A DNA stretch of 64,000 nucleotides from the NCBI GenBank assembly GCA_030765065.1, contig CM060989.1:36571501-36635500 (forward strand), in the 5' to 3' direction. Under the pieces are notes generated by a model. The model did not search any database. It saw only the letters and a list, made by a program, of their open reading frames with translations, and was not told where the DNA came from. This document shows, piece by piece, positions 5,701 to 59,600 of this stretch. The translations under genes were made by a program, and so were the position numbers. Each line of letters begins with the position of its first letter. The first letter of the stretch is position 1. The stretch is from Deroplatys truncata. Taxonomy: Eukaryota; Arthropoda; Insecta; Mantodea; Mantidae.

Positions 5701-8700
5701 TGTACCAGATGAGAAGATACACAATTTATATTGGCTAGCAAGGGAAAAATTGATGGATCAAAATCCTGCACATTATACCCCCGCCGCTATAACGTTGCAC
5801 TTGACAGCTAGCGTTTAAGTTGGTACACTCGCGAAAAAACAGATGAAAAGCTTCAACCGTTTGACTTCCTAAGCCAATCATAAGACAGCATTCCGGATGG
5901 TCGATGACAAAGCGGAACCGGATCTAGAATCGGCTCTGTTGCCGGATGTAACTATTCCCAACCACGTGCTTCAGTTTGTGAATCTCTAGCAGAGCGTCGA
6001 TTTGTTCTTTACAAGCTACATATTGTTCATTGTTATTTGTTATTTAGATTTGTGGTTATTGTTTGATAGTTTTGTTATTGTTCGTTTATACATTTATTTA
6101 TTTATATTTATCTATTTTATAAATATTTCATTCATATTATTTATTTAAACAAAACTTAAGTGCGACAATGTCGGAAAAACGACGCCGATCGCCGACTGAT
6201 GATTCACAAAGTGAAAATCCTTTGCGCTGAGGTGTACCACTTAATAGTCAGGCATTGGAACTATTAAGGAGAACCCGGGAGTTCTTTGAACAGGAAAAGG
6301 AGTACGTGAAGCTTCACGGAAATCCCTCTATTCCTGCTGATAAAGCCGTACAACGAACTGCAGCAGCTCTTAGTTTAAGCACGAGAACTGTTGTTCACAA
6401 AGGAGTGAAACTACAAGAGAAAGAGGACAAAATTCCTGAACCATCTGGAACACAACAGGTATTTCTATCAACTCCAGGGAAGAAAAAAAAGAAGCCTCGT
6501 CCAGTCACAAATATTGATGCTTTCCAATTAGATGCCATACGTAGACACATTTATGCCTATTATCATAGAAAGGAGTATCCGACCATACCAAAGCTGCTTA
6601 TATCGCTTATTTTCAATTAACAATAATAATACGAAATAGTTATTATTCAGTGTCGTTCACTACTTACGTACACTTTTTGTATGCGGCTTAGACACGATAG
6701 AAATGAGAACAATCAGCTGTTGTTGTTTACTAGCCACTCTGGCAACGTCGCAACCACGATGTAGCCAACCTTACGCGAAGCCACACGAACTGTCAAGTGC
6801 AACGTTATAGCGGCGGGGGTATAGATCAACAACACCATTACATTCAGGATATTATTTATTTATTTTTTAAGTGCTATGTTCATACATGGTTATGGACTGA
6901 GCTTAACCCTATACCTTTTTCACTATAACTCGAAAGGAGAAGTAAACAAAACTTAAATGTATCACTCCGCAGAGCACATGGCAGCACCACGTGGAGAATG
7001 ACAGGAACTAAGTAACCGAGAGAAGAAATTGCTTCAGACAGAATGCAAATACAGTACATTGCGCAGTTTGGGATCATTAGTTTTTAAACATTGCATGTCT
7101 TATTCCTATATTTTGCCTTACATCCTCAACTTCTAACACACAATGCTAAGGTTAGACAAATAAAAGTTGTACCTGAACAGTTCTGCATCTGTGGTTAAAG
7201 GTGCTGGATTAAACAGATCTTAACTTCAGGCTTTAGAAATCATTCATTTTATGGCTAACATCAGTATACCACTTTTGCTTTAACCTTTTATGAGCCAACA
7301 ACTTAAGAAAATGATTAGCACTATAGGTTACAAAACCACAGAAAACAAATGCGACCCAAGCAATAATTCTACATCACTAACAAAGAAGATCAATTATTGG
7401 TAAATAATGTCCAACAATATACATTGTCAATTAAAGGTGGGTACGTTCCACAGACTTTGTTAAAAGCATTTAACACAATTGTCTTCTTTCCATTTCTCGC
7501 GTTTATGTTTTCTACAGTGGCAGAGGATTCTCAGCCATGACACTCATTTTCTCAACACGTTACAAACGTACACTGGCGGCTTATCCGAAAACCGGAAATG
7601 AACTGCAGCGCCTGCACATAGCCTCTTAGACCCTCTGTTATAACGATTCATTTAGTTATATGTGAATCTGAAGAAACACATTTTATTTCATAAATTGAAT
7701 GTTACAAGAATAACCACAAAATGTTACAATCTGAACCGAACTGTTTTATGTAGAGGAAGAGACGACATGCTAAGGCGGAAAAGTTGTAGTTTGCCCACCA
7801 GCCAATGAGGTGCTCTCGTCACATGGTTTTGTTTACAACTCCTTTAAATTTAAAGTGAAACCACTTTAGTTATTTGGCCAGCCATAACTATTTCAGTGTA
7901 CAAATACAAAAGTTAACATATTACTTAGATGTTCTTTGTCAACTAAACATTTATCTAAATTTGCATGTTTTTCAACTGACCATTTTCAGTTCATCTTCAC
8001 TTTCCATAAAAACTCCCCTAGTTTGAGAATCTGCTTCTGGTCTTCTAAAATGTTTGTAGGTGCAATTTCTTTGATTCTCAGTAACCAATTCCTTCCAACA
8101 CGAAAAGCTTCAACGATTTTCCATCGATTTAGTATCATTCCTAACCTTCCTTCCAAAATTTCTCTCACTTCCTGGATTGGCCACACTCCTCTTCTTTCTT
8201 CTACTCCAGGTATTAGCAGATTGAATTTCCAGTATCTTTCTTCCAAGGATCCCACTCTCCTTTTAATGGTTTGAACTTCCGTTTTCATATCCTGTATTTC
8301 AATTTTAACTTGTTCTTTAATTTCTCTACCCCATATCGTTCATTCTCTTCCCTAGCCTTTTTTCCATTCCCTGTAATCTGTTCAGAATTTCTTCACCAAG
8401 CCCTTCATCACCCTTAGGTCCAGGATTCATCTCCGCTCTTCAATAATTAATAACATGCCAATTGCATACACTGCAACATAGAGATAAATAGTTTCTCCCT
8501 GCTGTACTTTTTTACTTTCTCTACTACATATAGTAAGTAGGGGAAGTATTGTATTCCACGCAAAAATTCGATACCGAGATTTCACCGGAAATACATGTTT
8601 TGAGATCCCTGAATCCAAAAAAAAGCATTTTTGGAAACATGTCCGTGTGTGTCTGTGAACAGCATAACTCAGAAACGAACAGTCGGATAAACACCAAACT

Positions 8701-11700
8701 TGGTATTTAGGTTCAGTATTTTCCAGAGATGCGATACAAAGGTTTTCAAGAAAATCCCCCCACCCCAGAGTACCCTTTACATGAAACATTTTTCGAAAAT
8801 TTTAATTTTCTCAAAAATGGCTCTAACGATTTTGATTAAAATATCATATGTTTAAGATATTTTCATGACAAATAAAATGTATATCTTGAATTTTCTGGGA
8901 ATGTCTCTAAAAGTATTCTTCATTGTGAATGACTTTTGGTAAACTGGTAAACCATAAGAGATAAACAAAATTTTACTACACAAAAGATGTAGATCGCGTT
9001 AATTTACACAATTTATGTCATATATATTTTTGTTGTTCAGTGAACCATTTTCGAGATATTGCTTGTTATTCCCTTAAATGTTTCAATACTTATTTTCTCA
9101 AATGGGAATTCGTTATTCATTTTTTTGTCTTGGATATGCAAAGAGCATTAATCTGTGGCAAAGAGAATCATTCTGCACCTAGCAACCAGCTATTAAGAGA
9201 TATGTATGTGCTTAAAGGCTACTGTATTTCGATACTGCCCTTGTAAATATATATTTCCCTTGTATCTACAAGAAAATTAGCAATAAGATAGAGTCTGCAA
9301 ATGTTTATCTCGATTAACATGAAATAGATGGAGAATAAGCATTTGTAAAAATAGTTTGTACAAGAGTAGAGAAAGTCATGTGAGTGTAACACATCAGATT
9401 TTTTTTTTAACAGATTCTACTTCATTCTACTGTACAGACCAATTCTTGCTCTGTAGATTTCTATACCAATTCCCATATTTTGTTACTCATGACACTTTCT
9501 CCCCTTCTTTCTGCAGCTCTTAACAAACACAACCTCTCTCCTCCACTGCCAGCTTAGCATCCCTTCAAGATATTAGATGTACCAGTAAGCAAAGGGAATT
9601 GCTGATTTTGTGGTGCAAGGGTCAAAATAAGCATTCCTCTACATTTATAACAATACTAGTGATTTTAATTTTTAATTTTAAGGCTTCCTTTATTAAAGGC
9701 TGCCTCTCGGATAAAACATAACAAATATAAAATTACCAATAAACACATAAATGGTGAATAGGGCAATAAGACCAGAACAAAGTCATACAATGAAACAATT
9801 TTAAAAGGAAGCAGCAATGTTACGATTAGAAAACATTTAACTTAAATGAAATTTTAAAGCTTTTACAAATATGCATGGTGAAGAGATTGAAAGATGAACT
9901 GTGGGTCGTTTTGAAAATCCACAACGATCTGGGGGAAGCCAGTAGAAGAACATGGAATGCATCACTGTGGATAACAAGGGCTATAAAGATGATTTCTTAA
10001 GATGGCTACTGATCCTTTTAAAGCAGATGTTCCAAATGATTTGATGTCTATGGTGGGTAAGCCCAACATCTTGCAGGTGTCAGCGAAGAGCTTTGGAATT
10101 GTTCCACAGGCTCCTATTAAGCCCAATCACCACAATATTTTTCTTTATAGTATGGAACTATTGGCAGGTAGATATTCTTTTTCTCATCATCAACCTCCTT
10201 GGCTTGGGTAGGAACTCGTTTCAATTCATAATTTGAGTCTAATATGTAACTGATATATGAGCCAGGTTTAAAGGCAATTATATCAATATGTCATGTACTC
10301 CCTTGTGTAGCTATTCTGAAGATCTCTTCATGAGCCACATATACAATCTTCTGGAGAGAATTAGCTAATATATGCTGAATTGTGTGGCGACGAATATTCC
10401 TGAGTGCTTGGCCATAGGGACAAAAGCCAAGGACATGTCAAAGAGTATTACATATTTATTGGAGAAAAAAACTGTTCAATCTATTCCCATTTAAGGGATT
10501 GTTCTGTGAAATTCTTACAAGTTAATTCTGTTAGTATTAAAATATAATGAATTAATCTGTAAACTTCGACAGACATATTTCTGATACTGGTACTCCAGTA
10601 TTCCGAGTTACAAACATTAAAAGCTATTAATTTTACAAATTTAACAATTCTGATGCACACTTTTGTTTCAGGCGTAGGTTATTCTTGATTAGCTAAACAC
10701 ATTCTCTAATGTTTGGTTTCAATTGATTTAATTTTACTCATAAATTGGGATTCAGATTCACTTATTTCTGTATTTATTTTTTTTATATAAATAACAGAAG
10801 AAACTCCACATTCACATTCACATTCACAAAGGTAGTAGTCACAAACACCAAAAAAGCTTTTACAATTTTTTCTGACATCAATAAATACATATTTGTTTTT
10901 TCTTGCCAGCCAGAAGTCTGTTAAATCTGCCTTCTTGAGCATTTACCTGAGACTTCCATTACACTGTGTCACTGTACTTATGTACTGCTTGTGTACAGGA
11001 CTTTTCATTGTTTTCTTGTGCAAAGATGGCCTCTGTTGTATGCCTAGCATTAGAAGTATGGCTTCTGGCACAGTGAAATTATTTACCTCCCCTTTGAGCT
11101 TTTCATGCATAGATCCTTAATTAAACGTTTATCCACGTTCTAGTTTACTTTTTGTGAATCTTGCATAAGCTACGTATAAAAGTGACGATTTATCAAATAA
11201 AATTACAGTGCAGTACAATTAAAGTACAGTATCACACAAAAGTTTTTATAATGTCTCGTCATTTCTAACACTCCCGATATACCTATTACCTTCCGGGGAT
11301 ATTTCATTCCACGCAATGACTGGACCCATTTCTGAGGTGGAGGTACACAGCGGGTGGAATCTATTGCCTCCGATGGTATGCTGATGGTGATGAGAGGACC
11401 TACAGCTTTTACCATGGACTCTGAACCACGGGCCTTGGGGATACGTCACATGAGCAAGTCAGAGGTGAAGGTGTGGATAGAGCTGATTTAAAATCATAAC
11501 CCCAAAGTTGGGTATCAAATGCCGGACCCTCAGAACGGGAACCAGAAACAAAACCACTGCGCTACCCCAGTGCCCCCCTTTATGATGATGTAAAATCTAT
11601 TGTTTCTGTGTTGTTGTATACAGCTGTCAAATATTTGTTTGTAAAACAAATTAATTTAGCTTATTTGCTAAACTGTTTATGTATTAAATGGCACTAACAT

Positions 11701-14700: not shown

Positions 14701-17700
14701 TTATATTACAATATGCGTAATAAGCATTGCGTTGAACAATGCTTGCAAAAAAAAAGTATAAAATATGCTCGGTACACGAACCTCAATAGGCCTCATTACT
14801 ACATACCTGCTTATAACCACTCGTCTGTCAGCACATATTCAGCAGCTGGGACTCAACATGAAAGGTGACAATAGAATGAAGCTAAAAGGGATGCATTTCC
14901 GAGATACCATTGTGAACCGGCTGTGGAAACGATTTGGACTTTGACAAATACACACTTCAAGTCTGCTTATTTTTTTTGTCTTAGGGTGTACATCTCTCTA
15001 TGCAACTCATAAAAACAACTTTCACAAAATGTTAATGCTGATGTACAATATGTAAACATGTAAAAAATGAAATGCTGACCATTATGCAAGAATAAACATT
15101 AAAAGTACAGCATTGCAACTTTTCTTTTTACTCTCCCATATAACTGCAAAAGCCTACCTTGTGGTGGCCCTTAAGGGTAAGTTGGCAGGATAAGGTTTTT
15201 TTCTGGAGTTTTCTCTTAACCTCAAAGATGAACAATTCATTCATCACCCGATATGACCTAATCAGTTAAAGCAATGTATGCCTGATGATAGATATCAGTG
15301 CTTCTGATGGTGTACCTGAAATCTTTTGTTCGACTTTAAATCTTACTAGCAGAAATACCTGTTTTTGATGTTTTACATCTGTTTATTTACACTTATAACA
15401 ATTAAAGCCAATTGCAACACTGCTGCCATTCAATTCTTATAATTTGAATTGAATTGAGTTTTTTTATTTATGGACGCTCTTTAACTACTATGGTCCTTAG
15501 CATCCTATTCTAAAGAACCGGTAATTTTGCTTCTTTATCAGGCTTGAGGTTCTTTTCTGTGCTGTAAATCTATGACACAGGACCACTGGCTTTACTTCCC
15601 TTCCAAAGGTAGCCATGCTAAGGATTTTTACACCCAAAAAAATCCATCGCCCTCTGCAGGGTTTGAACCCGCGACCTCGGGAACTAGAGGCTAGCATGGT
15701 AACCACTACACCACGGAGGACACTTTATAATTTGATCACCTCAGCTTCATTGTATCAAATTTCTCATTCATCCTAAATTCTGAGACTCCTCCAAATTGCC
15801 TCCCATCCAACACTTCACCACTTCCCTCATTACAGGTGGTTTTTTGCATTAATGACCCTAAAAGAATGAAGAGAACAATATTTATCCTTTTATTATTGAG
15901 AAAATAGGACCATTTGTGCTAAATATCCTCAAAACCCCCTGTCAAATATTTTCCATCCCTTTCCTGTTGGGAGTTGATTTTTCCTATACCACCCCTGAAA
16001 GAATGAAAAGAACATTATTTATATTTTTATTTCGCAAAAATATTGAGAAAACATGCCTCCCATTAATGTTGGCATTTTGCATTACTGCCCCTAAAAGAAT
16101 TAAGGGAGCAATATTTATCTTTTATTCTGCAACAGCATTGTTAAAAAAAACAAAAAAAAAAACAGGCGCATTTGTACTGAGGATGCTCAAAATTGCCTCC
16201 TGCCAAACATTTTCCACCCTCTCTTTCATTAGGGGTGTTTTTTATACCACCCCCACAGTACTTTTACCCTTGTCCTAAAGAATGTGTGCAACCAAATTTC
16301 GTTGAAATCAAATCGGTGTAAGGGTGTAGAAGCATCTAAGGAACACACACAACATGCATACATTGACTTTTATATGTATGTAGATTTTAAAATCTGTTAT
16401 TGATCAAGGACAACTGAAATTGAAGTGCCGTACATGCATGCCCATTCACACTTCTGAATAAGACATTAAACTGCACGTTATGATCATGGCACTGAGCATT
16501 CTGATTCAAAAATCTAAAATAAAAGAGGAAAATATCTCAATTATGTTAAGAATGAAAACAACTCAAAAACCAGGCTAGCAGAACGACTAAAAGATATGGC
16601 ATGCCTAAAATTCTTTTCAGATGAATGTGTTTCCTGCCTAAAGAAACCAACTTATGTAAAATATAATAACTTAAATAAATAATTAATCGAGAGAATACAG
16701 ATTTTGGTAGAAGAAGAAGAAGAAGAAGAAGAAGAAGAAGAAGAAGAAGAAGAAGAAGAAGAAGAAGAAGAAGAAGAAGAAGAAGAAGAAGAAATGTTGG
16801 ATACACATCAACTTCACATTTAATAAGTCTAGCACCTTTCAAGATTTCAAACAAAAGATTTTCCCAAAATATTCCTACCCCAAACAACCCTTTACTGAAG
16901 AAAGTTTATATTTAAAAAAAATGGCTTTGATGACTTTGATTAAAATGTATGTTTATCATGAACAAAGTGTTTATCTTGAATTTTCTGTGAATAGCCTGTA
17001 AAAATCCTCTTTATCCTCACTGAATTTTATATAACTGGAAAACTGTAAAAAATAAACAAAAGCTTACTATAAAACCTTGTAGAACTTATTAAAATAAGCA
17101 ATGTGAATCAAATAATTTTTGGTAGCCAAATGTTCACTGCTGTATGTTTAAGTGTGAAAATGTGTTTTTTCCTTTGCTTGAGTTCACTGCTAAAAAATGA
17201 TGCGATAAAAATAGTCTCAAGAGCTGACTTTGCATATTACGTATAGCTGAAGTCCATGCTGCTTAATCTGAAATCATTTCTACACAAGTATTTTTGGAAC
17301 ATAACACATGGATAGAATATATTTTTTATATCAGCAGTAAATTATGAGGTGTGACAATAAACAATCGGACTCATCTTTAACACTTTATTAGGGAGGGGGG
17401 AATACAATGTTAACCCCTTCAATATAGCCCCCTTTCCCAGTTCCTCCATACAAATTTTCCATTGTTAAAAGCAGTGCTGCCCATCATGTTGTGTTATACT
17501 GTTCAACAACTGCGTCGCTTTGGCTTTCACTGATTCCTGGACTCGAACCTGGTTCGTTTGAGTGCAGACTTGACTTTTGAAAAGAGCAAAAAGTCACATG
17601 GTGCTAGGTTCAGCAAATATGTGGATGTTCCATCACTGGAATGTTGTTCTTTTAGCAAATAACCCTTCACATATGGTACGTTGTGGACTTGGGCACTGAC

Positions 17701-20700: not shown

Positions 20701-21951
20701 ATCTTTCTATGATAGCGGAGATGGCAACAAGCGCCAAGGATGTGGACAGGAAAAACACAGCGCAACCGGTTCGTAGTTTTTTGATTCTCTCTGTATTATA
20801 AGGCATACACACGTATCAGCAATGTAAACAAACATTTCAACTCCAGCTCCTTGCTGTTTATGATGCAAAGATTAGTCATGCATAGAGTGATGCGGTAACA
20901 TACAGTAAAGCATAAAAGGGAACTGCTTCTCATTCAGTAGGGTTGGTGAAATGCACCACATTAAAGGGACACTTGACAAAAATGGGTATCTTAGCATATC
21001 ACAATTATACATAGGTTAGAACTTTAATAGTGGCAACTATTTATTAATTACTACTACAAGAATAATACATGTTTGAAACTACTACAGTCCTTCAATGTAA
21101 TCACCAGCATCGTCAATAACCCATTGCCAGCGATGTGGAAGTCTTAAGATCAGGCAATCTAATGCCTGTAGAATTTCAAGAACAGTCCAGAATCGAATTC
21201 CATGAAGTGGTTCCTTCATCTTCAGGATTAGGCCATAATCATAGGGACTTACACCCCCGCCATTGAATCTTTGCACTTGATAGTTTGTGTGACTTTGTGT
21301 AATGTTGGCTATATTGTGGTTGCGACATTGCCAAAGTGACTGTGAACAACAACTGCAGATTGTTCTCCTTTCTATCATGTCTAAGCCGCATACAGTGTAC
21401 ATAAGTAGCAAACGTCAATCCATAATAACTATTTCATATTATTATTGTTAATTGAAAATAACTCAGCATAAACACTGCAACGTATGTAGAATAAATTATG
21501 CACTTTTGACAATATAGAAACAAAATAATGCAAACTTGCCTGCTACAATGAGGAGAAATAAAACAAATTATAAGCATGCGACAACAAAGTTATTTTCACT
21601 CGCCAATTTAAAACAGCAATGGCTCAATTCTATCCAAATCTCTGTTGTCATCATCATCATCCTCCTCTTGGAGTTTCATTCCCTTATAAATAACAGTTCT
21701 CATGCTTAGTCCAAGAGCTGCTGCAGTTCGTTGTATGGCTTTATAAGCAGCAACAGAGGGATGCCCATGAATCTTCACGTACACCTTCTACTGTCCAAAT
21801 AATTCCTGGGTCCTTCTTAACAGTTCCAATGCCTGATTGTTAAGTGGCACGCCTCGACGCAAGGGATTTTCACTCCGTGAATCATCACTGCATGATCGGC
21901 ATGGTTTTTGAGACATTGTCGCACTTCAAATCTTGTATGAATAATATGAAT

Positions 21952-22006
<55 letters not shown>

Positions 22007-25000
22007 AAACGAATAACAATAATAACAAAATTATCAAACAATAACCACAAGTATAAATGACAATGAATAATATTAGCTTGCAAAGAACAACTCGACGCAC
22101 ATGCTAGAGATTCACAAACTGAAGCACGAGTTTAGAAGTAGCTACATCCGGCAAAAGAGCCACTTCCAGTTCCGTTTCCACTTTGCCATCGACCACCTGG
22201 AATGCTGTCTTGTGATTGATTTAGGAAGTCTAATGGTTAAAGCTTTTGATCTTTCTTTTGTGAGTGTACCAACTTACGCTAGCTGTCAAGTGCAACGTTT
22301 CAATGGCAGGGGCATAGGTCCAGTGAATATGGTGGATGGAAAATCACTTCCCAACCCAGAGACAGCCCAAACATTATCCTGCAAAATGTGTCACAGCTTT
22401 CTTCGCAATACTGGTCTGAGATGATGCCCCAAAAATGACAAAAATAGTGTGCACCAAATTATGATGGCATGGTATATGTTAGGATAATGTCATCACAGTT
22501 TTACACAAAAAGTATCATAACTTTCATATTTGTGAGGGTTTGATGGATTTTTGTTTCACGCAGTGACCCATAATGATGCCACTTGGATTGGCGCTTAAGT
22601 TGAGATCCATGCGAACTAACCCATGTCTCAAACGCAATTATTTAGCATAAGAAAGCATCTCCATCGTGACTATAATGCTCCAAATGAGCTTGAATGGACT
22701 GTGTTGTATCCATCGCTGTGTTTTGTCAAATTGTAAGGAACCCAAAATGATGCAATTTTCTCATTTATAAGCGATTCTTTAGAATATGCAACACAGTCGT
22801 ATGCGATAAGCCTATCTCTTGGCCTAACTCATGTAGGTCTGACACCAATTGGTGTCTAACAGCGAGGCAACAGTCTGTATTTGCTCTTCACTTACATTTG
22901 TGTGACCTAGTCAAGCCATATCTGTTATGCTTTCATGTCCACCATTGAAAGCTCTACCCACCTCACTACTGTTCTATATGATAACACAGTTTCCCCACAT
23001 TCTCAACAAGACCTGTATGGCATTATCTTGCTGTACAACCACAGGTACATTCAATCTTTAACCAACTTCACTATTCCTGTTTAGTGAAAGTGGAAAAAAC
23101 ACAACACACAATAGTTTAGATTGGTAGCTCACGCAGGTCTATCTTCCAATCACCACAACACATATACTTTAAGTCGGAAGTGAGAGCCCATTCATTTGAT
23201 TACTTCCTTTTTGTTTCACTTCCACAGCAGGGTTGCTACTATTAAAGTTCCAACACACATATTAATACCTCCTTTTCTCATATTAGAACTGTTTTATAGA
23301 CACTATATTAAAAGCTTTAAACATATTGTATATTTTCCTAGTATTCTACATCCTATGGGCATTAAAATAATTGACTAATTTTGAAGATTTAGAAGCTAGT
23401 AACAGTGGTGTGTCACATTTAAGATAAAGAGAGCTCAGGGTTGTTACACTACATCACTAAAATATTCTTACTTGAACGCGCAACGTCAGCATGTTGAGAA
23501 CATGCTGACGATGGGAACAAGCCGTCTCCCGAAACGCGTTCAAGTAAGAATATTTTAGTGATGTAGTGTAACAACCCTCAACTCTCTTTATCTTAAAAAT
23601 TAAAATGATCATTTGATCCCATAATTATTGTACAAGTTATGCCTCTTACTGGCATTCTTCTATAAATGTAGGTGAGAACCAACAGGACACCCACTCTGAA
23701 TTTCCAAAAAGCCAACAAAAGTCATAAAGTCATGTCAACATTCTACAGAACTGCGGACTTGTCATCAAATGCAAATGCGACACATAACCAGTTGCACAGA
23801 AAGCATTCAGTATAGAGCAAACAAGGTCTGCAATTGCAAGCTACGTTAAACATATAGTAGTGAAAGGGTTAAATAGCTAAAACATACTTGAAAACATTCC
23901 TGAAAAGTTTTTAAAAGCATCACAAGTGTTTACTAGTCTGAATGTTTCCAAAACTCAAGTTCTACAGTATATGGCGCACTTTAACCTAGTGTATGCTAGA
24001 TTAATTGACCTAGATTTATGTAGGATTCACAACAGCACAATATGCAAAGCAAACTCATAAACTAAGCACAATCACAAAGTAACATTATTGCAATATAAAC
24101 AGTGATGAAAAACAGAACACAGTCTTACTCGAAAATGCAATAGAAGACAACATATAAGCAAAATTCCTTAGCAGTGGAGGCATAGCACTTAAGGAAACTT
24201 TACCAGTTTTAATACCTGTAGTGTCCTAAATTATATATTTATGGGTGATTATTCCATGAATGAAAATACTTAAGTAGAACATGTCTAAAAACTGTTAGAA
24301 TTATTCTGACTCAACCTTTACCTGGTATAAAATTATAAAACTTAAGTAATGGCATTTAAGCATAGTAAAATAGATGTACATAAGAACCTCATTTATCTGG
24401 ATTAGGTGGGAATGGAAATAATCCGGATTGACAAAAACCAGAAACAATCTATGAAATGAATATAATCTACTGATCTATACAAACATTTTAAGAAAAATGC
24501 ACTGGCACAAACTAAGTATTGTACTCACTTTTATTTTCTGAAATAGCATGCAAGTTTCTTTTGTCCACTTCAGTGGTATGGGGGTAGCATGTCTGTCTTA
24601 TATGCAAGAGGTCCTGAGTTTGGATCTTGGTTAGGGTGAATTACCCGTTTCTTTTTCCTGGGCTTTTCCTTATCCTGAGAAGACTAATGTTGGTAACTTT
24701 AAGCTCTGTGGATCCCAGGCTCATTTGAGCATCATTTCACTCATTTCAGTTATTCATTGTCCAATATAACCTACAGGTTAAAGAACGTTAAACTTAAAAA
24801 CAAAAAAAGTTTCTTTTGTTTCAAATTTGTGTTGCGTTTGAGAAACAAGAAACCAAAAAACTCAATCCGCATAAATTGGAACTCTGCATTAATGAGGGCT
24901 GGATAAACAAGGTTCTTGTGTAAATAGTTATTTTATTGACATGACTTTCTGTTCAAAGTGAAGATTATTCTACAAACTTACAGAATGATAACGAATTTAA

Positions 25001-30541: not shown

Positions 30542-30639
<98 letters not shown>

Positions 30640-33600: not shown

Positions 33601-36600
33601 TGCATGTCTGTAAATAGCGTAATTCAAAAATGAAAAGTTTAATTAAATACCTAACTTGGTATTTAAGTTCAGTATCTTCCAAGGATGCGACACAAAGATT
33701 TTCAAGAAAATTCCTCCACCTCCAACTACCCTTTACATGGAACATTTTTCGAAAATTTTGATTTCCTAAAAACTCAAAATTAATTTTGATTAAAATACCA
33801 CATATTAAAAATATTTACATGACATATAAAATGCATATTTTGAATTTTCTGGGAATAGCCTGCGAAGTCCTCTTTATTCAGTAAGAATTTTGTATAAGTG
33901 GTAAATGTTAAGCAATAGGCAAAAACGTACTTCACAAAAATGTAGATCTCTTCAAAACACACAATTTATTTGAAATAAATTTTTTTTGTAGCATAAGCCA
34001 TTTCTTAGATATCCGTTATTAATTGTTCAAACTGTTCATTACTTGTTCATTCTTTTAAAGTCCTATCAACATTCAGCTGTTTCTCGTGGTATCATGGAAA
34101 GAGCATAGAATTTTAAAGCCAGCATATAGCATCCAGTTCTTAAACATTTGACTATCCCTATTCCCTTCATATCTATAATAAAATGTATAATGTAGGTATT
34201 TATGGAAAGGTTTATCTGGATTAAAATGAAATACATAGGAAAATAAACTTATGTAAGAATAATTTGTGTACCCACTAATAAACAATAGAGGGTAGAGAAA
34301 GTTATGTGAATGTAACACATCAGATTTTTTTATTTCTTTTTTACTTTCTCTACTACTTACCTAAAGTAAGTAGAAGAAGTATTGTATTCCACCCAAAACT
34401 TTGTACTGACATTTTCCTGGAAATACATGTTATGAGACTCCCTGAAGCCAAAAAAAGAAGCATTTTTAGAAGAAGTGGTATTTAACTTCAGCATCCTTTA
34501 AAGATGCGACAAAAATATTTTCAAGAAAATCTTCCCACCCCAAACTACCCTTTACATGGAAAAGTTTTAATTACTTTTGATATTCTCAAAAATGGCTCTA
34601 ACAATTTTGATTATAACAGATATGTTTACAATATTTGCATGACAAATAAAATTATATCTTGACATTCCTAGAAATAACCTGTGAAGCCCTCTTCTTTCTA
34701 TATAACTGGTAAACCATAAGAGAAAGATAAAATCTTACTAAACAAAAAATTTAAAACTTGTTTAAATACTTATGTCGAATACAAATTCTTGCGGTGTTAA
34801 TTTCCGAGATATTCTTTGTTATTGTTATTATTTTCAAATACTTTTTTTTTTCAAGTGGTAAATGGGATCCAGTAGTTAAAAATCTGACTATCCCTTTAGT
34901 CAACTGTATTCTTATGCCAAAAACAAAATGTGTAAATGTTTAATGAAAGTTCATCTCTATTAAGGGGACCAATCTGTAAATTTCCCAAAACCCAAAGTAT
35001 TCTATTGAGTATTTTGAATTTTTTACATCTTATGTCTGCATAAAAAAGAGTGTCATTTCAAAGTTTGGTGCAGATATGTTAAGTAGTTTTAAAACACAAA
35101 TTTAACCACTTTATAAACACATGCTCCTTACAATGCAATTTTCATAATTTTTAAACAACTTTTCAGATTTATGGTCCTTATTGAGCGAGAAAATAACTTT
35201 GCTATGAAATATGCTTTTAAAATAAAATATGTTCAATTGTGAGTTTTGGCTTTTGCAATAAACATATACTTATAACCTTGGATGAGATTGGTGGTATTAA
35301 TACATTTGCCTTATTATAATAATAACCACTACAACTTTAACTATCATATATTGGAGAAAATATTTCCGAAGTTTCACTCTGATATCTTTAAAATTACATC
35401 AAAAGCAGTAATATGACTGCTGAAAAATCTCTAAAATATTACAGCCAAGAAAAACACACCAGAAAACTTACTCATAAACACTGGTCTGAAATACAAGCCT
35501 CCCACATTTTAATTAATCATTGTTAACAAAGTAAGCAAAATTATGAAATGAGTGTGGTACTTAAAGAAAGATTATCCATCATTATTTCTTATACTATTTA
35601 CAAGAGCTCCTCTGTGTGGCAATCTTATTCACTATATGTAGGGTCTTTCAACAAGAGTGTCCTATCTTTGAACTTAAATAAAACATGTTCTATAAATGAT
35701 AGAGGTTTATTCCTTTTTTTATTTTGGAACATAATTAATGTTATTATGTGTGGAAGAGAACCTCAGTTAAGTGACTGCTGCGACTTCATTGGGGTTGCAC
35801 GTATACGGTTGACCCAATTTTCAATGACAGAAGAACGTAAGTTAGGTCCAACTTCACGAATAACACGCGTGATGTTATTCATAAGATCATTTACTGTTTC
35901 TGGCTTGTTGACATAAACTCGAGATTTAACATAACCCCACAAGAAGTAATCCAACGGCGTTAAATCACATGACCTCGGGGGCCCGTTAACATCATCACCA
36001 CGGAAATGATGAAACCTTTGAACTTCTCCTTCAAAAGATCAATTGTTTCGAGAGCAGTAAGACATGTGGCACCATCTTGCTGGAACCAGATGTTTCTGAG
36101 ATCCATACCATCCAATGGAGGCCAAAAATAGTCCCTTATAAGGGCCCGGTATCTTTCTCCATTGACAGTTAGACCTTCTCCATCTTCATCTTGGAAAAAA
36201 TATGGATCAATGATTCCACTATACCAAAATCCACACCACAAGGTAACCTTTTGGGGATGAAGTGGTCATTCTTAAATCTGCATTGGATTGTGATTGCTCC
36301 AATAGCGGCAATTTTGTTTGTTAACACAACCATCCATCCAAAAGTGGCCTTCATCGCTGAAGATGATTTTTCAACAAAAATCAGCTTCCAATTGCTCCAT
36401 AGCCCAGTCGGCGAATACACAGTGCAAGTTATGGTCATTGGGCTTTAGTTCTTGAGTTAACACCATTTTGTAAGCGTGAAACTTCAAGTCCAGATGCAGA
36501 ATTCGCCAAGTTGTGGTCAGCGAAAGCCCCAATTCTTGCGCTCAGCTAGTAATTGATTTGTTTCCGTTCTCGCGTACACTCTCACGAACGGCGACTATGT

Positions 36601-39600
36601 TTTCGTTGGAGCGCTTATGTCAATTATGCACAGGCGTTCTTTGATTGCTGACAGAACCACTCCTTTCAAATTTATTGATCAAACGTTGAATCGTTCTCTC
36701 GCAGGAACAATTATGCACACTGTAAACTTCACGCAATACACGGAAAGTTTGTCGAACAGAGGATCCATTTTGATAATAAATTTTCACCATTTCCACGCGT
36801 TGCTGAATGCCATAATGTTCCATGGCTATTTGTCAAGAACAACTGTAACCACATGAAAAAAATGACTGCTGTAACTCAATAACAACAGCAGCTATCACAT
36901 GTTAAAGATAGGATACTCTTGTTGAAAGAACCAGAATTAGATAGAAGGATAAGCTTTCATAAGAATAGTTAGTGGAAGAGTGAGTAAACAAAGCCATGTG
37001 AATGCAACACATCAGAGTTTTTAAAATGCTGTCTTTATTCAGTTGTTTTTTGCAATGTCCTAGAAAGAATATGGAATTTCAAAGTCCATATATAGCAAGG
37101 CACTTTTAAACTTTCCACTTTTCTTCTATCCCCCTTGTACCTTCAACGAAATTTGTAATGAAACTATTTCTGCAAAGATTTATCTCAATAACATGAAGTA
37201 AATAAAAAAATAAGCTTTTGTAAGAACAGTTTGTGAAAAATTTATTAAAATAAATGATAGTGGGTGAGAACACATAGGAGGCAGTTGAACACATCACATT
37301 TTTTAAGTTTATCTTTAGATCAGGCAAAATCACACAGTGGATGAACTAAAATTAAATTAAAATTCAGTTTTATCTATGGACACTCTTTTAACTACTATGG
37401 TCCTAGCGTCCCATTCTATATTGGGCATGAAAGACCAGAAATTTTGCTCAGAACTCTTTATCAGGCTTGAGGTTCTTTTATGTGACTTAAATCTCACACA
37501 GAACCACGGCTTTACTTTCCTTCCGAAGGAAGCCATGCCAAGCATTTTTATGCCTGAAAAAAATCTATCGCCCTCTGCCAGGTTTGAACCCAAGACCTCA
37601 GGAACTAGAGGCCTTGATGAAATAAACATGTGAAATAAGCTCAGGGACAAAAAATGCAAAGGATATGTGATAACCGTCCTACAGCCTGAGGAAAATATCA
37701 AAAGTGAAGTTTATTCTGAATGAATTTTATATAATTGGTAAACCATAAGAAACAGACAAAAGCTTACTACATAAAACATGCAGATCTGGTTAAAACATAA
37801 CATTATTGTAAATAATTATGAAGTATTTTATACCGCAGAGCATGTTGTTTTATAAAATCTTGAAATGAGCCGAAATATTTAAACACAATGAACTCTATAT
37901 TATTTAAATAAAATTCTAGTGGCAACACACTGTAACTTCACTCTTTCAAGATAATTACCTTGAACGCGTTTCGAAGACACCTTGTCTTCATCATCAGCTA
38001 AGAGCCAAGGTCAAAAAATGAGACCAATAATAAACACTATAAACTCATCCACATACAATATATCAACATGGTTAGTTAAAGAATTTCAGAAACTACCACA
38101 GTTCCACAGCCTAAGTATTAAGAATACATTTGATCTGATAGAAAGCATCCAAAACCTAGAACTCACAGACAATGACCTTCTGGTGTCGTATGATGTCATT
38201 TCTTTGTTTCCTAGCATACCAAGAGAAAAACTCCTTACATATACCAGGCAGTGGTTAAAGTCAAAAGACATGGGTAATGAAAAAATAGAGGAATATCTTG
38301 CTCTGATAAAGTTATGTATCAATGAGAACTATTTTACATTTAGAGATGAGTACTATTGCCAAATAAATGGACTAGCGATGGGAAATCCATTGTCCCCATT
38401 TCTAGTCAATTTGTACATGAACTTTCTGGAGACCACACAACAAATGCATTCCCATTTTTATTTAAACGATGGTTCAGATATGTTAACGACATCTTCGCAG
38501 TATTTAACAAGAAACTTGCCGAAGTTACCTTGAAGTTATTTAATTTGATAGACAGCTCGGTAAAATTCACAATGGAAATAGAATCAGACAACAAACTCCC
38601 TCTCTTGGATATAATAGTCATCAAAACTAAGAATAAAGAGTGGCTCTAAGCTGATCATGAAGACAAGGTGTCTTCGAAACGTGTTCAAGGTAATTATCTT
38701 GAAAGAGTGAGTTAGTGTTGCCACTAGAATTTTATTTAAATGATGTTTTAACTACTTCACTGTGTTTCCCATTAATTGTTATGTTAAAACAATGAACTCT
38801 ACTTACATTTTGTAATCATAAGACCGGTTTCAGGGATTTATTTATCACATACTCTCTGTTTTCACTTTTAATAAATGCCTATTTTCTGTGTTTTAAGAGC
38901 TCTTTGCCTGCCTATTTTAACAAAATTAAATGCCTGAACTTCCAAGCTGTACTTATAAATTATATTAAGAAATTTACTCAAGCATCAAATTTCATTACAT
39001 AAAAAGTAATTCACAAAATTCTCATGCTAGACTTCGAAAAAAAATATCAATCATACTGAACTTGCAAAAAATCTTGAATACATGTTGGAAAGTTGAGCCC
39101 TATTATTAACTGCAATTTAAAATTATTTTTAATTGAAAGAGAAGCATTTAACTTCCATTACAAACAATTTTAGGTAACAGTTCCATAAATACTTTCTGAA
39201 TTAAATGCTGAACAGGATTTAACGAACAAAAATGCATAATTACAGAGTTTAAGAGGAGATGTGAACACTTGAAAAGCCTGTAATCAAACCCCATCTGTTT
39301 ATAAGATACTTTCTTATATACAAAATTTATTGCTAAGTGTCAATCCGCAAAAATGGTGATTTTGCAGTTGTTCTTAAAACACTCGTTACCAATTTATCTC
39401 TGTGCATCATCAAGAAGCCTAAGATTTAAGCAACATACAGCTCATTCTCGCCTCCTTTACTGCGCAAATTCTAATATCATACCCATTATTTTAACACATG
39501 CACACACACTAATATTAACCTAACCTTGAAACCAGAGGACCCTGTTGATTTACACAAGCTCGCTAGCAGTAAATCTTGATGGCCTCCGCTCGCCACATAC

Positions 39601-46855: not shown

Positions 46856-46859
46856 GAAT

Positions 46860-48980: not shown

Positions 48981-48989
48981 ATCGTTTAT

Positions 48990-49855
48990 TTTTACTTTCT
49001 CTACTACGTATAGTAAGTAGAGGAAGTATTGTATTCCACCCAAAAATTCGATACCAAGATTTCACCGGAAATATATGTTTTGAGGCCCCCTGAATCCAAA
49101 AAACCAATTTTGGAAACATGTCCGTGTGTGCGTCTGTGTGTGTGTCTGTGAACAGCATAACTCAGAAACGAACAGTCGGATAAACACCAAACTTGGTATT
49201 TAGGTTCAGTATCTTCCAGAGATGCGACACGAAGGTTTTCAACAAAATCCCCCCACTCCAGATTACCCTTTACATGGAAAACTTTTCGAAAATTTTAATT
49301 TTCTCAGAAATGGCTCTAACGATTTTGATTACAATATCATATATTTAAGATACTTTCATGACAAATAAAATGTATAGCTTGAATTTTCTGGGAATGTCTC
49401 CAAAAGTATTCTCCATTGTGAACGACTTTTGCATAACTGGTAAACCATAAGAGATAGACAAAGGTTTACTACACAAAAAATGTAGATCGCGTTAAAATAC
49501 ACAATTTATGTCATATACATTTTTAATTGAGTGAACCATTTTCGAGATATTGCTTATTATTCCCTTAAATTTTTCAGTACTTATACTTTTTCTCAAATGG
49601 GAATTCGTTATTCATATTTTATGTCCTGGACATGCAAAGAGAATGGATTGCGCCACATAGCAACCAGCTCTTAAAAGATTTGACTATCGCTTAAAGCCTA
49701 CCATATTCCCCTTGCACCTACAAGAAAATTAGCAATCAGATTAACATCTGGATTAACATCTAGATTAACATGAAGCATATGGAGAATAAGTGTTTGTAAA
49801 AAGAGTTTGTATAAGAGTAGAGAAAGTCATGTGAGTGTTACACATCAGATTTGTT
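48990..49855 (+). repeat. Helentron-like repeat family, copy 6 (full length)
   Basis: Starts TTTTTACTTTCTCTACTACG with palindrome TATAGTAAGTAGAGGAAGTA. Ends GTAGAGAAAGTCATGTGAGT then GTTACACATCAGATTTG. Inserted immediately after the 5' end of the R2-like remnant. Best copy for the family consensus along with 8508-9405. Confidence 0.9.
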
Positions 49856-50095
49856 TAAGTTTGCTGTGGGTACTAGTATGTTTACATTGTGGATTATTAT
49901 CATGTAAAATACCACATTTGCGTACAGTAAATGACTGAAGCATATGGAGAATAAGCGTTTGTAAAAATAGTTTGTACAAGAATAGAGAAAGTCATGTGAG
50001 TGTAACATAGCAGATTTGTTTAAGTTCGCTGTGGGTACTAGTATGTTTATATTGTGGAGTATTATCATGTAAAATACCACCTTTGCGTACAGACT
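49750..50095 (+). repeat. about 180-bp tandem duplication of the repeat 3' end and flank
   Basis: GAAGCATATGGAGAATAAG...AGAGAAAGTCATGTGAGTG plus flank GCTGTGGGTACTAGTATGTT...AAAATACCAC(A/C)TTTGCGTACAG occurs twice (about 49770 and 49938). It is a local duplication including non-repeat flank. Confidence 0.92.
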
Positions 50096-50275: not shown

Positions 50276-50640
50276 TTTGCTTGGTATTTAAGTTCAGCGT
50301 CTTCCAACGATGCGACACGAAGGTTTTTAAGAAAATCTCCTAACTCAAACCAATCTTTACATGGAAAATGTTTGTATTTTTTATTTTCTCAAAAACGCCT
50401 CTAACAATTTTGATTAAAATACCACATTTTTAATATATTTGCTTGAAAAATAAAAGATATATCTTCAGTTTTCTGCGAATAGCCTGTGAAGACCTCTTCA
50501 TTCTAAATTATTTTTGTATAATTAGTTCACCGTAAGAAATACACAAACTCTTACATCACAAAACAAATTAGATCTAGGTAAATCACACAAATTATATTGA
50601 ATAAAGTCGTTTGTGACGTTAATCACTTCCAAGGTATTGT
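50276..50640 (+). repeat. Helentron-like repeat family, copy 7 (internal fragment)
   Basis: TTTAAGTTCAGCGTCTTCCA, GATGCGACACGAAGGTTTTT, CATTTTTAATATATTTGCTT and AATAGCCTGTGAAGACCTCT correspond to the middle of the family. Confidence 0.75.
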
Positions 50641-50839
50641 AATTTGTTTATGTAAAAGGTTATCAGGTAATCATTTTAAATGGAATATGGCGTATGTTTT
50701 TACTTTTCTTTGTTGTGTTTATGTACCCTATTTTCCCACGGAAGTATTTATTTATGTTTTGACAGGTGCATTGCCCGATTCTAATAAATTGGCTGTATTT
50801 ATCGAAAGATACGGGTGGCGCTTCGAAGAAAATTAACCG

Positions 50840-51408: not shown

Positions 51409-51456
<48 letters not shown>

Positions 51457-53554: not shown

Positions 53555-54822
53555 CGAGGGTGATCTGAAAAGTTTCCGACCTAATAAAGATACCTACAAG
53601 ACATTTTTTCAGATTTGTTTTTCAACATAGTCTCCTTGTAACTGTACACACTTCTCCCAGAGATGCTCCCATCTCTGTAACCCGTCCAAATAGTACTCGG
53701 CGTTTTTCCTTGCAAAATAATTGTTCACGAGGGTGATTGCCTCTTCATTTGACGAAAATCTCTGTCCTCCGAGCGCAATTTTCAGATGAGGGAACAAAAA
53801 GAAGTCGCTTGGGGCTAGATCTGGTGAGTGAGGCGGACGGTCAAACAGTTCAAACCATAATTCGTGGATTTTCGCCATTGCAACCGCTGAGGTGTGAGAC
53901 GGAGCGTTGTCTTGGTGAAACAGGATTTTCTTTTTCTGCAAATGTGGCCGTTTTTCCGCAAGTTCTGCCTTCAGCTTGTGAAATAATGATGCGTAGTATG
54001 CTCCTGTAATGGTTTCTCCTTTTTGAAGATAATCGATTAAAATAACTCCATGACTATCCCAAAAAACAGTCGCCATCAGTTTCCCAGCAGTTTTTTTGTG
54101 CCGGTTCCCCCTTTGCAGTCCACTGTTTGGACTGTATTTTTGTTTCGGGCGTATAATGGCATATCCAAGTTTCATCTACAGTAATTAATTGGCGTCAAAA
54201 CTCGGATTTATTGCGCCTAAACTGCGCCAACAGAGCGTTGGGAATGTTCATTCCAATACGTTTTTGGTCAAACGTGAGCAAACGCGGCATCCAACGCGCG
54301 AACAGCTTTCTCATGTCTAAATGCTGATTTAATATGTGACAAATACGTTCTTTTGACATGTTCATAGCCTCTGCTATCTCTCTCACTTTAATTCGCGGTC
54401 GTCTAGCACCATTTGGTGACTTTGGCAATGTTTTCGTCGGTAGTTGCAATTTTGGACGTCCCGAACGTTCATCGTCTCCCAAGCTCTTACGGCCACGTTT
54501 AAATTCAGCTGCCCAAAATTTCACTGTGGTAAATGATGGTGCAGAGTCCCCATACACAGAATCCAACTCATCTTTGATTTGCGTAGGCGTATTGCCTTTC
54601 AAATACAAATATTTAATAACAGGTCGATACTCGAATTTGTACATTTTCATAAAAACACTTACATCACCTCACTCAAACGACTGTTACATAACAACCTAGC
54701 GTCCAAAATGGCTGAAACTTTGGTGAGTAACTGTCAACAGATGAACAACGAAATTCACTAGCTTTTATTTACGACTGCTGCCATCTTCATGTCGAGGTCG
54801 GAAACTTTTCAGACCACCCTCG
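53555..54822 (-). mobile_element. mariner element, near-complete, with TIRs and TA target duplication
   Basis: A 28-bp TIR beginning CGAGGGTGATCTGAAAAGTT / CGAGGGTGGTCTGAAAAGTT (one mismatch) is flanked by TA at 53553 and 54823. The length of 1,268 bp is normal for mariner. The transposase starts MKMYKFEYRPVIKYLYLKGN at 54650 and shows an HTH (NTPTQIKDELDSVYG), RARWMP-type linker (LFARWMPRLLTFDQK), TVDETWICHYTPETK, LFHQDNAPSHTSAVAM and PPHSPDLAPSDFFLF, with 34 residues between the second and third Asp, ending LQGDYVEKQI at 53609. Only two lesions seen: a TGA just before the DETW block (about 54193) and a one-base slip in an A-run near 54092. Confidence 0.95.
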
Positions 54823-54989: not shown

Positions 54990-55070
54990 ATTAAATATGT
55001 TACCACAGGCGGTGAACACTAATGATACATTCAATGAAATTGTATTTGGGAAAGGAATATTCGCTCTTTG
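54990..55070 (+). repeat. SINE S4 3' fragment
   Basis: GGCGGTGAACACTAATGATA, CATTCAATGAAATTGTATTT and GGGAAAGGAATATTC align with 42635-42700 (GGTGACACTAGTGATGCATG, GAATGAAATGATAATTTGG, AAAGGAAATGTTCC). Confidence 0.45.
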
Positions 55071-56490: not shown

Positions 56491-56493
56491 TGT

Positions 56494-56649
56494 TCATGTG
56501 TAGAGGATGTCATACACAGAGCGTGGAAGGTGATCTGCCACAAATGCCTGCAATTTCTCAGCACGTGTGACAGGAGTATACCGTGAAATGGGAAACGTGC
56601 GGCACACAGCATCGGAAAGCGAGCGCAGAACAGGGGTCAAATCTGTTTC
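56494..56649 (-). CDS. SDR gene, terminal exon
   Basis: Acceptor CTTTTCTTTTCAG (strong pyrimidine tract), phase 0. Encodes ETDLTPVLRSLSDAVCRTFP, ISRYTPVTRAEKLQAFVADH, LPRSVYDILYT and TGA. The YTPVTR and LPRSVYD blocks match the C-terminus of BDH1-like proteins. Confidence 0.92.
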   Translation of the reverse strand, partial: ETDLTPVLRSLSDAVCRTFPISRYTPVTRAEKLQAFVADHLPRSVYDILYT

Positions 56650-59600
56650 CTGAAAAGAAAAGGAAAAAATAACAAATGGCATAACTGTTTCTATTTTAGG
56701 AGAATAGTATCCAATAAATCTATGTACTGGAGATAAAATGCACAATGCAAATTTTTTATTAAATAAAGATTTTGATATGGAGTTTCCATATTTTCTGGGT
56801 TGCTAAGTAACACCCTTTATTGTAATAAGAGTATACAAAGCATTTAAATAATGACATTTGAAATAAGCACAGAAGAATTTTTACTTTATCTACTACGTAC
56901 TTACAGTAAGTAGAGAAAGTATTGTATTCCACCCAAAAATTTAATGTCAAGATTTCACCAGAAATGTTTTGAGGCCCCATGACCCCAAAAAAGTATTTTT
57001 AGAAAAAATATCCAAGTGTGTATGTGTGTGTGTATGCGCCCGTCTGTTCGTCCGCCCACCCGTGAACAGCATAACTCAAAAACAAAAGATCTGATAAATA
57101 ATTAAACTAGGCATTTAAGCTCAGTATCTTCCAAAGGTGCAACACAAAGATTTTCAAGAAAATCTTCCTATGCCAAACTACTCTTCACATGGGAACATTT
57201 TTATTTGCTCAAAAATAGCTGTAACAATTTTGATTATAATACTTCAGATATTTCAGACATTTACATAAAAAATAAAATGTATATCTTGAATTTTCTGGGA
57301 ATAGCCTATAAAGACCTCTTCATTTTGAAGGAATTTTGAGTAATGTTGTATAACTGGTAAACAATAATAGACAAAAACTTTCTACATGAAAAATGTAGAC
57401 CTCTTTAAACACGCAATTTATTTAAATAACTTTTTCTGTGACATCAGCCATTTCCAAGATATCCATTATTATTGATTTCAGTTTTTCAATACTTATTTTC
57501 TTAAAGTGCTGTAGCTATTCAGTACTTTGTAATGTAATGGAAAGGGTATGGAATTTGAAAGCCAATATTTACTGACTAAGCTCTAAAACATCTACTAATT
57601 TGGTTTCCTTTATCCCCCTTTGTATACACAACGAAGTGTGAAATTAAATTATTTTTGGAAACAATAACATGAAGTAGATAAAAAATAAGATTTCGTAATA
57701 AGAAGCTATATAAAAATAGAGATCTCTGATAAAACTCCATATTTGTAATAATGTACATATACCTTAATTGTACAGAACTATTAATGGAGATACCTTTTTT
57801 GGATACTAAGCGCTACAGAATTATATATACTGAGAGATTAAAATCAACTTTATAAAATTTTATCTTAGAATATTTAAACGCTTTTATACAAGATATAGTT
57901 GGATAACTACAGGGTAAAGAGAACAGGTCATACATATATTCAATTTGCTGGACAACAAAATAACCAAAGTAATTATAGCACCAAAAATAAATATCCATGT
58001 TTTAAGTTCAAACTTTGCTACCTAATTTTACAAGAAACACGAGATGTGTTTTATCTTTAACAACCACAATTTTAAGGGCCTAAGTCACTTATTTCCTTAT
58101 GTTCAAGGATTGACACATACCATGTAATCTTGAAGCCATCCAGTTAAACATAAACTTTGCAAAATGTCAGAATAGTAATTAATGATTTAAAATGTATGAG
58201 TATAGGCAAACAAAGTAAATTAGGTCATCATTTTTCTATGAGCTTCCATATCTTGTGGCTTTTATTCAAACATCCACAAATATGTATATCAACTCTCCAG
58301 AATTATATTCTGCAGGCAAATAGGACACAAAAACATTTTAAAATACTTATTTTGTGTTACAGCTCCCATTTGATATTCATAAAAGGCTAACCAATCAGAA
58401 GGTATACTACATGCTTCCACCTGGCACTGTAATGCAGATGGTTACTTGGTTTGAGTATACTAAGGCAATTTGCCCCTCCTCTTTTACTGCTTTACAGTCT
58501 TTCCCTAACCTTGTTGAGCTTGCCAGCTTGAAGAATGGAAAGCTCTAAACTGAGTCAGCCACTTCACTAAGCCTGAATCTAAACATTGACAGTAAGCTGG
58601 AAAATGTTTGAGTCAGAGTATAATGGGATTTGTATTCATGCTGCCTTAAAAGCTCTTACGGCAGTTAAAATCACATCCAAATTGGTCTGGTAATGCCAAA
58701 GGATGTTGGATAGACTGTGTGCCAGTGGTCTGGTCACCCTTGTTTGGGTCCCTGGGCATGCAGGCATTAGAGGCAATGAGATGGCAGACATGCTCGTGTC
58801 TTAATTTCATAGGACCTGAGCTCTTCTGTAGTGTATCTCCCAGAAGTATCAAGTATGAAATAACCCAAATAACAAGTAGGGCTCATTTTGAATATTAGAG
58901 TAAACAAACTACTGTCAGGCAAGCCCATGAATTAATTTGGGTCCAGCGTTAAGCAGAGTAAAATTCTTTTGAATTTAACTATACCCCCGCCGCTGTGTCT
59001 TTGCACTTGACAGTTCGTGTGGCTTCACGTAAGGTTGGCTACATTGCGGTTGCGATGTTGCCAGAGTGGCTAGTAAACAACAACAGCTGATTTTTCTCCT
59101 TTCTATCGTGTCTAAGCCGCATACAAAAAGTGTACGCAAGTAGCGAACGTCAATGAATAATAACTATTTCGTATTATTATTGTTAATTGAAAATAAGCGA
59201 TATAAGCAGCTTTGGTATGGTCGGATACTCCTTTCTATGATAATAGGCATAAATGTGTCTACGTATGACGTCTAATTGGAAAACATCAAGATTTGTGACT
59301 GGACGAGGCTGCTTTCTTTTCTTCCCTGGAGTTGATAGAAATACCTGTTGCGTTCCAGATGGTTCAGGAATTTTGTCCTCTTTCTCTTGGAGTTTCACTC
59401 CCTTGTGTATAGGTAACAGTTCTCGTGCTTACCCAAGAGCTGCTGCAGTTCGTTGTACGGCTTTATCAGCAGGAATAGAGGGATTGCCATGAAGTTTTAC
59501 GTACTCCTTTTCCTGTTCAAAGAATTCCCGGGTTCTACTTAAAAAGTTCCAATGCCTGACTATTAAGTGGCAGACCTCGGCGCAAAGGATTTTCACTTCA

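Follow-up and report, generated by a model that had tools for sequence, protein, structure and literature searches.

A 0.9-kb repeat of the mantis Deroplatys truncata is very probably a HINE that shares its ends with Rep-helicase elements of the same genome

Introduction

The 64-kb stretch of the Deroplatys truncata genome analyzed here (the window; contig C15, CM060989.1, positions 36,571,501 to 36,635,500, in a genome of 4.29 Gb and 818 contigs) contains a 0.9-kb repeat that raises two questions: by what means did it spread, and why do all of its copies in the window point the same way? A first-pass annotation of these letters had described about ten copies in one orientation and had proposed a non-autonomous Helentron-like (HINE) family. 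This proposal is supported by shared ends, a Rep/helicase partner and insertion at T-runs. With a probability of roughly 0.93, we conclude that the repeat is a HINE, i.e., a non-autonomous member of the Helentron class of rolling-circle transposons. The conclusion draws on dispersal on both strands, constant ends, ~10.4-kb elements with the same ends that encode Rep, PIF1 helicase and AP-endonuclease, and T-run insertion sites. The common orientation in the window is a matter of local chance and self-insertion.

Results

The repeat is dispersed genome-wide with constant ends

With the copy at 8508 as query, 40 places drawn from 3,102 first-look candidates were scored, and all 40 matched over most of the length at 92-100% identity, one of them being the query itself. 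An exact 34-nt 5′ end was counted 123,665 times genome-wide (61,749 forward, 61,916 reverse) and an exact 35-nt 3′ end 116,282 times (57,907 forward, 58,375 reverse), extending the family from the window to genome-wide copies with exact ends. The reversed 5′- and 3′-end patterns, counted genome-wide as a control, gave no match. As the strands are evenly split, uniform orientation is not a rule of the family; this part of the earlier description holds within the window and fails as a family property.

The constancy of the ends bears on the possibility that the repeat is the tail of a short or long interspersed nuclear element (SINE or LINE), spread by target-primed reverse transcription, in which case the T-runs would be poly-A tails read from the opposite strand. 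T-runs do flank both ends, and the window contains reverse-transcriptase-like fragments at 29596-30369 (under the Pfam cut-off) and 37964-38530. Variable 5′ truncation would be expected for such an element, whereas the 123,665 exact 34-nt copies show a constant 5′ end. This end is also kept together with its 3′ end: 48 of 79 listed 5′ ends have a listed same-strand 3′ end within 3 kb, and 34 of these 48 pairs lie at 833-924 bp. Moreover, the nested sites described below lack a target-site duplication (TSD) of non-T bases, and no reverse-transcriptase domain is among the Pfam hits of the protein encoded between these ends. We regard a SINE or LINE origin as very improbable.

The ends are of the Helentron type

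The left end is ordered as a T-run, ACTTTCTCTAC, a 12-nt spacer and GTAGGGGAAGT. The hairpin of ACTTTCTCTAC and GTAGGGGAAGT folded better than 199 of 200 shuffled sequences (z -2.87), which bears out the near-palindrome that had been noted beside a T-run at one end. At the right end, GTAGAGAAAGT is followed by C, ATGTG...CACAT, CAGA and a T-run. The inverted 11-mer GTAGAGAAAGT, with ACACATCAGATTT after it, had earlier been put at about 24 bases and is now placed 22 nt inside the right end (CAGA). Both ends have 11-bp subterminal inverted repeats (subTIRs), the 5′ one being nearer to the terminus (5 nt from the proposed 5′ end compared with 22 nt). The stem of the 3′ palindrome (ATGTG/CACAT, 5 bp) gave z values of -0.22 and -0.67 against shuffles. 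The ends, TTTTTACTTTC and CACATCAGA, do not show the 5′-TC and 3′-CTRR of the canonical Helitron (Helitron1), as that rule is given in the available text of PMC5148889.

The hairpin end is the 5′ end of the element, by the published HINE convention and the sense of the partner gene. We had considered the hairpin as the 3′ end, and the same two points overturned this assignment.

Inverted 11-mers at both ends could alternatively be the terminal inverted repeats of a miniature inverted-repeat transposable element (MITE) moved by a cut-and-paste DDE transposase, and the window does hold pieces of a mariner-type transposase (Table 1). However, the 3′ repeat is not terminal, lying 22 nt inside the end, the nested sites show no fixed non-T target duplication, and the coding element bearing these ends is of the Rep/helicase type. 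A MITE is hardly credible on these grounds.

Autonomous elements bear the same ends

PF14214 (Helitron_like_N) matched 152 times genome-wide, with matches of several kinds and many in broken frames. At least 18, counted by eye among the matches listed, lie in open frames of at least 2,000 codons. Three of these 18 were studied with their flanks, namely locus A (L031/L029), locus B (L032/L030) and locus C (L033); A and B were covered to the 3′ end and C at the 5′ side only. Locus A starts with TTTTTTACTTTCTCTACTACGTATAGTAAGTAGGGGAAGT and finishes with GTAGAGAAAGTTATGTGAATGTAACACATCAGATTTTTTT, with ~10.4 kb between. Locus B has the same two ends and locus C the same 5′ end. Over HINE bases 1-616 and 3-741, identity to the copy at 8508 was 88.4% and 89.6% for A and 83.6% and 89.3% for B; locus C, compared in pieces of 146-610 bp, reached 90-95%. 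At the 3′ end, both A and B agree with the same copy at 95% over the final 39-40 bp. Loci A and B are 99.1% identical to each other over 7 kb, from which we infer that the partner probably moved recently.

The partner frame comprises 2,324 and 2,345 codons in loci A and B. In the locus A product (2,288 residues), Pfam found Herpes_teg_N at 31-176, DUF6570 at 680-807, Helitron_like_N at 923-1114 (PF14214, 1.2e-27 for the whole protein) and PIF1 at 1578-1800 (PF05970, 1.8e-28). The PF14529 endonuclease was absent among the Pfam hits to the whole protein and was recovered when the C-terminal 274 residues were searched by themselves (2.6e-6; 27.7 bits, the curated cut-off being 27.4). An OTU domain was not among the hits to the 2,288-residue protein at E up to 0.01. 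A VTD-type protease, DUF6570, a Helentron-type Rep, a PIF1 helicase and an AP-endonuclease are encoded in a single partner frame. In the PDB, the whole protein matched PIF1-type helicases and the Helraiser helicase region by sequence (E 1.3e-22); the matches of the N-terminal part were both weak, a large tegument protein deneddylase (E 0.0029) and the deubiquitinating enzyme 8adb (E 0.015).

Rep motif 2 (ExQxRGSPHxH) reads EFQMRGSPHEH in all three partner loci. Loci A and B further share RGSPHEH, YIIKYISK, GSAGVGKS, GDFNFD, SDHKP and the protease motifs TQCTSN and FDPHS, and the partial locus C has the protease motifs and RGSPHEH. The motifs are recognizably catalytic, the residues being assigned partly after the papers cited here. 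An RGS signature in Rep is described as a mark of Helentrons in the available text of PMC4067079. An autonomous relative with the same termini, as the first-pass annotation had envisaged, is therefore present, with Rep, PIF1 helicase, AP-endonuclease and the signature RGSPH. A partner with reverse transcriptase or DDE transposase had been named as the contrary outcome, and the Pfam hits of the protein with these ends show neither. Between VTD and Rep, at about residues 270-600 of P0001, the protein has a tandem repeat with a 21-residue unit (KRNKEYMEQAREDEEYKKSER-like), and the frames of A and B differ in length by 21 codons.

All three partner loci have a doubled 5′ end of the HINE type, the two heads being separated by 626-680 bp. 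Across the genome, three or more heads also occur together in some cases. Because the doubled ends occur at three different places, we infer that two-headed forms transpose as units.

Several observations weigh against the HINE assignment. Sharing of the 3′ end with the partner is confined to the last 39-40 bp, and HINE bases 742-858 are unmatched in locus A, so that simple internal deletion of the copies studied would not give the HINE. Furthermore, the 3′ palindrome folds no better than shuffled sequence, and no transposition was observed. The short 3′ overlap would also fit a HINE mobilized mainly by another Helentron family, the 10.4-kb element sharing its ends merely through recombination. 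Such a scenario is likewise compatible with the several kinds of PF14214 matches, many in broken frames, and with partner identities of 84-95% by locus and stretch, mostly under the >95% given for Culex pairs in the available text of PMC4067079. Against it stands the presence of this 5′ end in three of three loci and of this 3′ end in both loci covered that far, and we judge it unlikely.

Nested copies lie at T-runs and show no duplication of other bases

The flanks of 28 full-length copies were compared among themselves for empty sites, which are therefore paralogous. Candidates came from 7 of the 28: three were the family's own ends (one each for L017, L022 and L025) and four were nested copies. 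L023 interrupts GATCTACA-T(5)-GTG, with five T's on its left and six on its right, and its relatives have five or six. The fit is poorer for one L025 copy (five T's to its left, nine to its right, three to four in relatives); divergence at the other L025 site prevents a count, and L019 has lost some flank. Locus B is nested in a family copy, ...AAAAATGC(T)6[element](T)6GGATTC..., and uninterrupted AAAAATGC-T(n)-GGATTC copies have a single run of 6-8 T's. Duplicated non-T bases were found in none of the five nested sites, i.e., the four from the flank comparison and locus B. The empty sites that the first-pass annotation had proposed for defining the ends were thus obtained, as paralogous ones, and they lack a non-T duplication; a target duplication consisting of T's alone may occur. 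All 36 distinct 5′ ends compared have T at positions -1 and -2.

Five T's appear to belong to the 5′ end

T-runs at both ends leave it ambiguous which T's are the element's own. Genome-wide, 80,803 copies have exactly five T's before the 5′ end, and a run of six or more stands before another 26,754. Among copies with at least five T's, the sixth base is thus T in 24.9%, which is below the T content of the window (31.7%). TTTTT precedes 26 of 40 distinct local 5′ ends, a set that omits L001-L008 and L035 as duplicates or array. At the other end, 106,460 copies have at least six T's after the 3′ end, and the T-run varies widely in length at 45 distinct local 3′ ends, from 0 to 11 and most often 6-7.

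Junctions between copies allow the T's to be apportioned. There are 7,189 head-to-tail junctions; among the first 100, the spacer from CAGA to ACTTT is five in 51 and never below five. Two-headed junctions at an internal T-run number 19,053 and their two-tailed counterparts 8,403, with a five-base spacer in 82 and a seven-base spacer in 59 of the first 100, respectively; both kinds were scored by spacer length, without their letters. In local uninterrupted copies, the internal run has six to eight T's in 20 of 26, by our own reading of the counts. The motif of this internal hot spot is GTTATTCA-T(n)-ATGTCC. Spacers of five and seven, minus a run of seven, leave five T's to be brought by the element.

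We favor the simplest reading of these counts, in which the unit starts with five T's, finishes at CAGA and enters at the upstream edge of a T-run. The counts likewise favor the right-hand T-run as target. Alternatively, the five T's could belong to the 3′ end and the left-hand run of five could be the target; this placing is less preferred, as it needs cuts after exactly five T's while the -6 base shows no T enrichment.

Taken further, the favored reading gives a base-resolved model of Helentron ends. TTTTT-ACTTTC...CACATCAGA would enter directly before the target T-run with nothing duplicated, its own five T's and the internal T-run would be preferred next targets, the family would in this way generate its tandem arrays on one strand as well as multi-headed forms, and the mobilizing autonomous lineage would itself be two-headed. 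We propose this full model tentatively, at slightly less than even odds. Two of the points against five T's moved our estimate down from even: the inner heads carry four T's in A and in B and six in C, and a run of five or more T's is missing before at least 16,108 of the 123,665 exact 5′ ends. In addition, TTATT precedes 5 of the 40 distinct 5′ ends and other -TATT forms precede 3; TTATT occurs in none of 57 printed head-to-tail junctions. The sharpness of the spacers also calls for caution, as junctions amplified from a single founder would look equally sharp.

Close neighbors share a strand

Strand relations between neighbors were scored for 73 of 100 listed 3′ ends on contig C1, leaving aside 27 that belong to a tandem array, and for 79 of 100 listed 5′ ends, leaving aside 21 beyond 15.2 Mb. 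Pairs less than 1 kb apart were always on the same strand among those listed (6/6 for 3′ ends, 9/9 for 5′ ends). Same:opposite counts at <1 kb, 1-5 kb, 5-20 kb, 20-100 kb and 100 kb-1 Mb were 6:0, 5:6, 7:6, 10:7 and 14:7 for 3′ ends and 9:0, 8:4, 6:8, 10:7 and 13:10 for 5′ ends, summing to 31:20 and 29:25 over 5 kb-1 Mb. An orientation rule linked to the direction of replication was dropped, since neighbors 5 kb-1 Mb apart show no clear strand rule. Successive two-headed junctions less than 1 kb apart were on the same strand in 21 of 21 cases, and one random piece with its neighbor (L037 with L056) revealed a 3-kb cluster of same-strand copies, end-to-end and nested. In the flanks of 20 chosen loci, 35 copies at least 500 bp away were on the same strand and 19 on the opposite one; this mild excess may come from broken single copies.

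The tandem array near the start of contig C1 (20.5-119 kb) has a unit of ~3,409 bp. A piece of it (L035, C1:19600-27600, 8 kb) contains one HINE per unit, with adjacent units 99% identical.

Copies and other features of the window

A profile hidden Markov model (HMM) was built from 30 copies, i.e., 28 full-length BLAST hits, two of them from the window, and two older window copies; its own window members match by construction. At E<0.01 the window yielded 13 matches, every one of them on the plus strand; the reversed window had none. The count of about ten copies made in the first pass corresponds to about ten places. Both ends are present in three copies (8509, 33466 and 48989), the copy at 56878 lacks the final model positions only, and the rest are partial (Table 1). 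Family sequence covers 9.3% of the window, 18.3% of the flanks of the 20 chosen loci and 3,858 of 20,000 bases in a random sample (present in 6 of 20 pieces of 1 kb, from 12 large contigs only), all of these being rough figures in which decayed remains are counted. An Rfam search of the window gave no match.

Table 1 Copies of the repeat, their parts and other features in the window.
Feature	Position	Strand	Profile HMM match	Remark
5′-part fragment	746..1268	+	746-1268	Without hairpin
Other ~1-kb repeat, three copies	5774..6829; 21389..22259; 58974..60045	both		Inner AT microsatellite
Full-length HINE copy	8509..9398	+	8509-9403	TTTTT + ACTTTCTCTAC ... CACATCAGA, ends as proposed; right T-run extends to 9408
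5′ subTIR	8514..8524	+		ACTTTCTCTAC
Inner inverted repeat	8537..8547	+		GTAGGGGAAGT, second arm of 5′ hairpin
3′ subTIR	9366..9376	+		GTAGAGAAAGT
3′ palindrome	9378..9394	+		ATGTG...CACAT, 5-bp stem, not better than shuffles
Internal fragment	16789..17123	+	16789-17123	
Older full-length copy	33466..34324	+	33466-34329	Both ends present
Copy with 5′ end only	34338..34865	+	34338-34472, 34476-34865	Head-to-tail after the 33466 copy, spacer TTTTTTTATTTCTTTTTT
Pair of adjoining 3′-part fragments	36929..37303	+	36929-37022, 37029-37303	
Internal fragment	37699..37799	+	37699-37799	
Reverse-transcriptase fragment (PF00078)	37938..38710			Flanked by 70-bp inverted repeats
Full-length copy	48989..49849	+	48989-49854	Both ends present
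~165-bp unit, twice in tandem	49771..50092	+	49935-50019	HINE 3′ end + ~75 bp flank; second copy 49935..50092
Internal fragment	50280..50723	+	50280-50723	Neither end present
Mariner-type transposase pieces	53612..54668	-		Mos1 helix-turn-helix and Transposase_1, in two open frames
Copy with 5′ end	56878..57722	+	56878-57722	Final 3′-end positions unmatched

Discussion

By precedent within the family, the partner Rep would nick at the HINE ends, the helicase would peel off a single strand, perhaps through a circle with joined ends, and the strand would be placed at a T-run, probably with help of the endonuclease. Judging from the counts, the mobile unit TTTTT-ACTTTC...CACATCAGA would enter beside the target T-run. 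Since it would enter next to a T-run, each copy would supply new T-runs on its own strand and could seed tandem and nested clusters of the same orientation.

The element class is already known; the present work contributes the pairing of a HINE with a Helentron, its scale, and an account of the ends at base level. Not every HINE family has been linked to a partner, and the oyster study (PMC7492417) was unable to name one. A pair in one genome, with at least 18 long open frames and more than 100,000 exact ends, offers a very large sample of Helentron starts, ends and targets. To judge from the small random sample, the family and its remains may make up a large share of the 4.29-Gb genome, which bears on genome growth. 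Large helitron-rich genomes are already known, with helitrons at 7-20% of grasshopper repeatomes in the available text of PMC7486953.

The following comparisons refer to the available text of each source. HINE/DINE-1 elements and Helentrons as described by Thomas, Vadnagara and Pritham 2014 (PMC4067079) resemble the present pair in a 5′ subTIR close to its terminus plus an inner inverted repeat, a 3′ subTIR followed by a palindrome (here a candidate one, whose 5-bp stem folds no better than shuffles), T-rich targets with no target modification seen, a Rep/Hel/EN partner with an RGS motif, and a HINE that outnumbers its partner. The distance from subTIR to end is 5 nt at the 5′ side (proposed end), compared with 2-4 in the mite, and 22 nt at the 3′ side, compared with 38-60. 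Thomas and colleagues left open which T's are the element's, and our counts favor five on the 5′ side. Five element-borne 5′ T's, a 3′ end at CAGA and the right T-run as target are possibly new.

VTD-carrying Helentrons, reported from vertebrates, insects, cnidarians and molluscs (PMC9741609), likewise have a herpes-tegument-like protease with Cys and Asp-x-His motifs and a C-terminal AP-endonuclease; they differ from the present protein, which gave no OTU domain hit and has a 21-residue repeat between VTD and Rep. Cg_HINE of the Pacific oyster (PMC7492417) shares the left subTIR, inner inverted repeat and microsatellite, the right subTIR with palindrome (a candidate one here), and oligo-T sites with no TSD. 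In contrast to Cg_HINE, no central satellite array was seen in our copies, and the partner, unresolved in the oyster, was found here.

FoHeli of Fusarium (PMC5148889) has Helitron2-type ends as well, and its joined ends were detected by PCR. In the fungal elements, by contrast, neither an endonuclease domain nor variation in the T count was found. FoHeli copies with several 5′ termini arose by transposition and thus provide a precedent for the two-headed forms described here.

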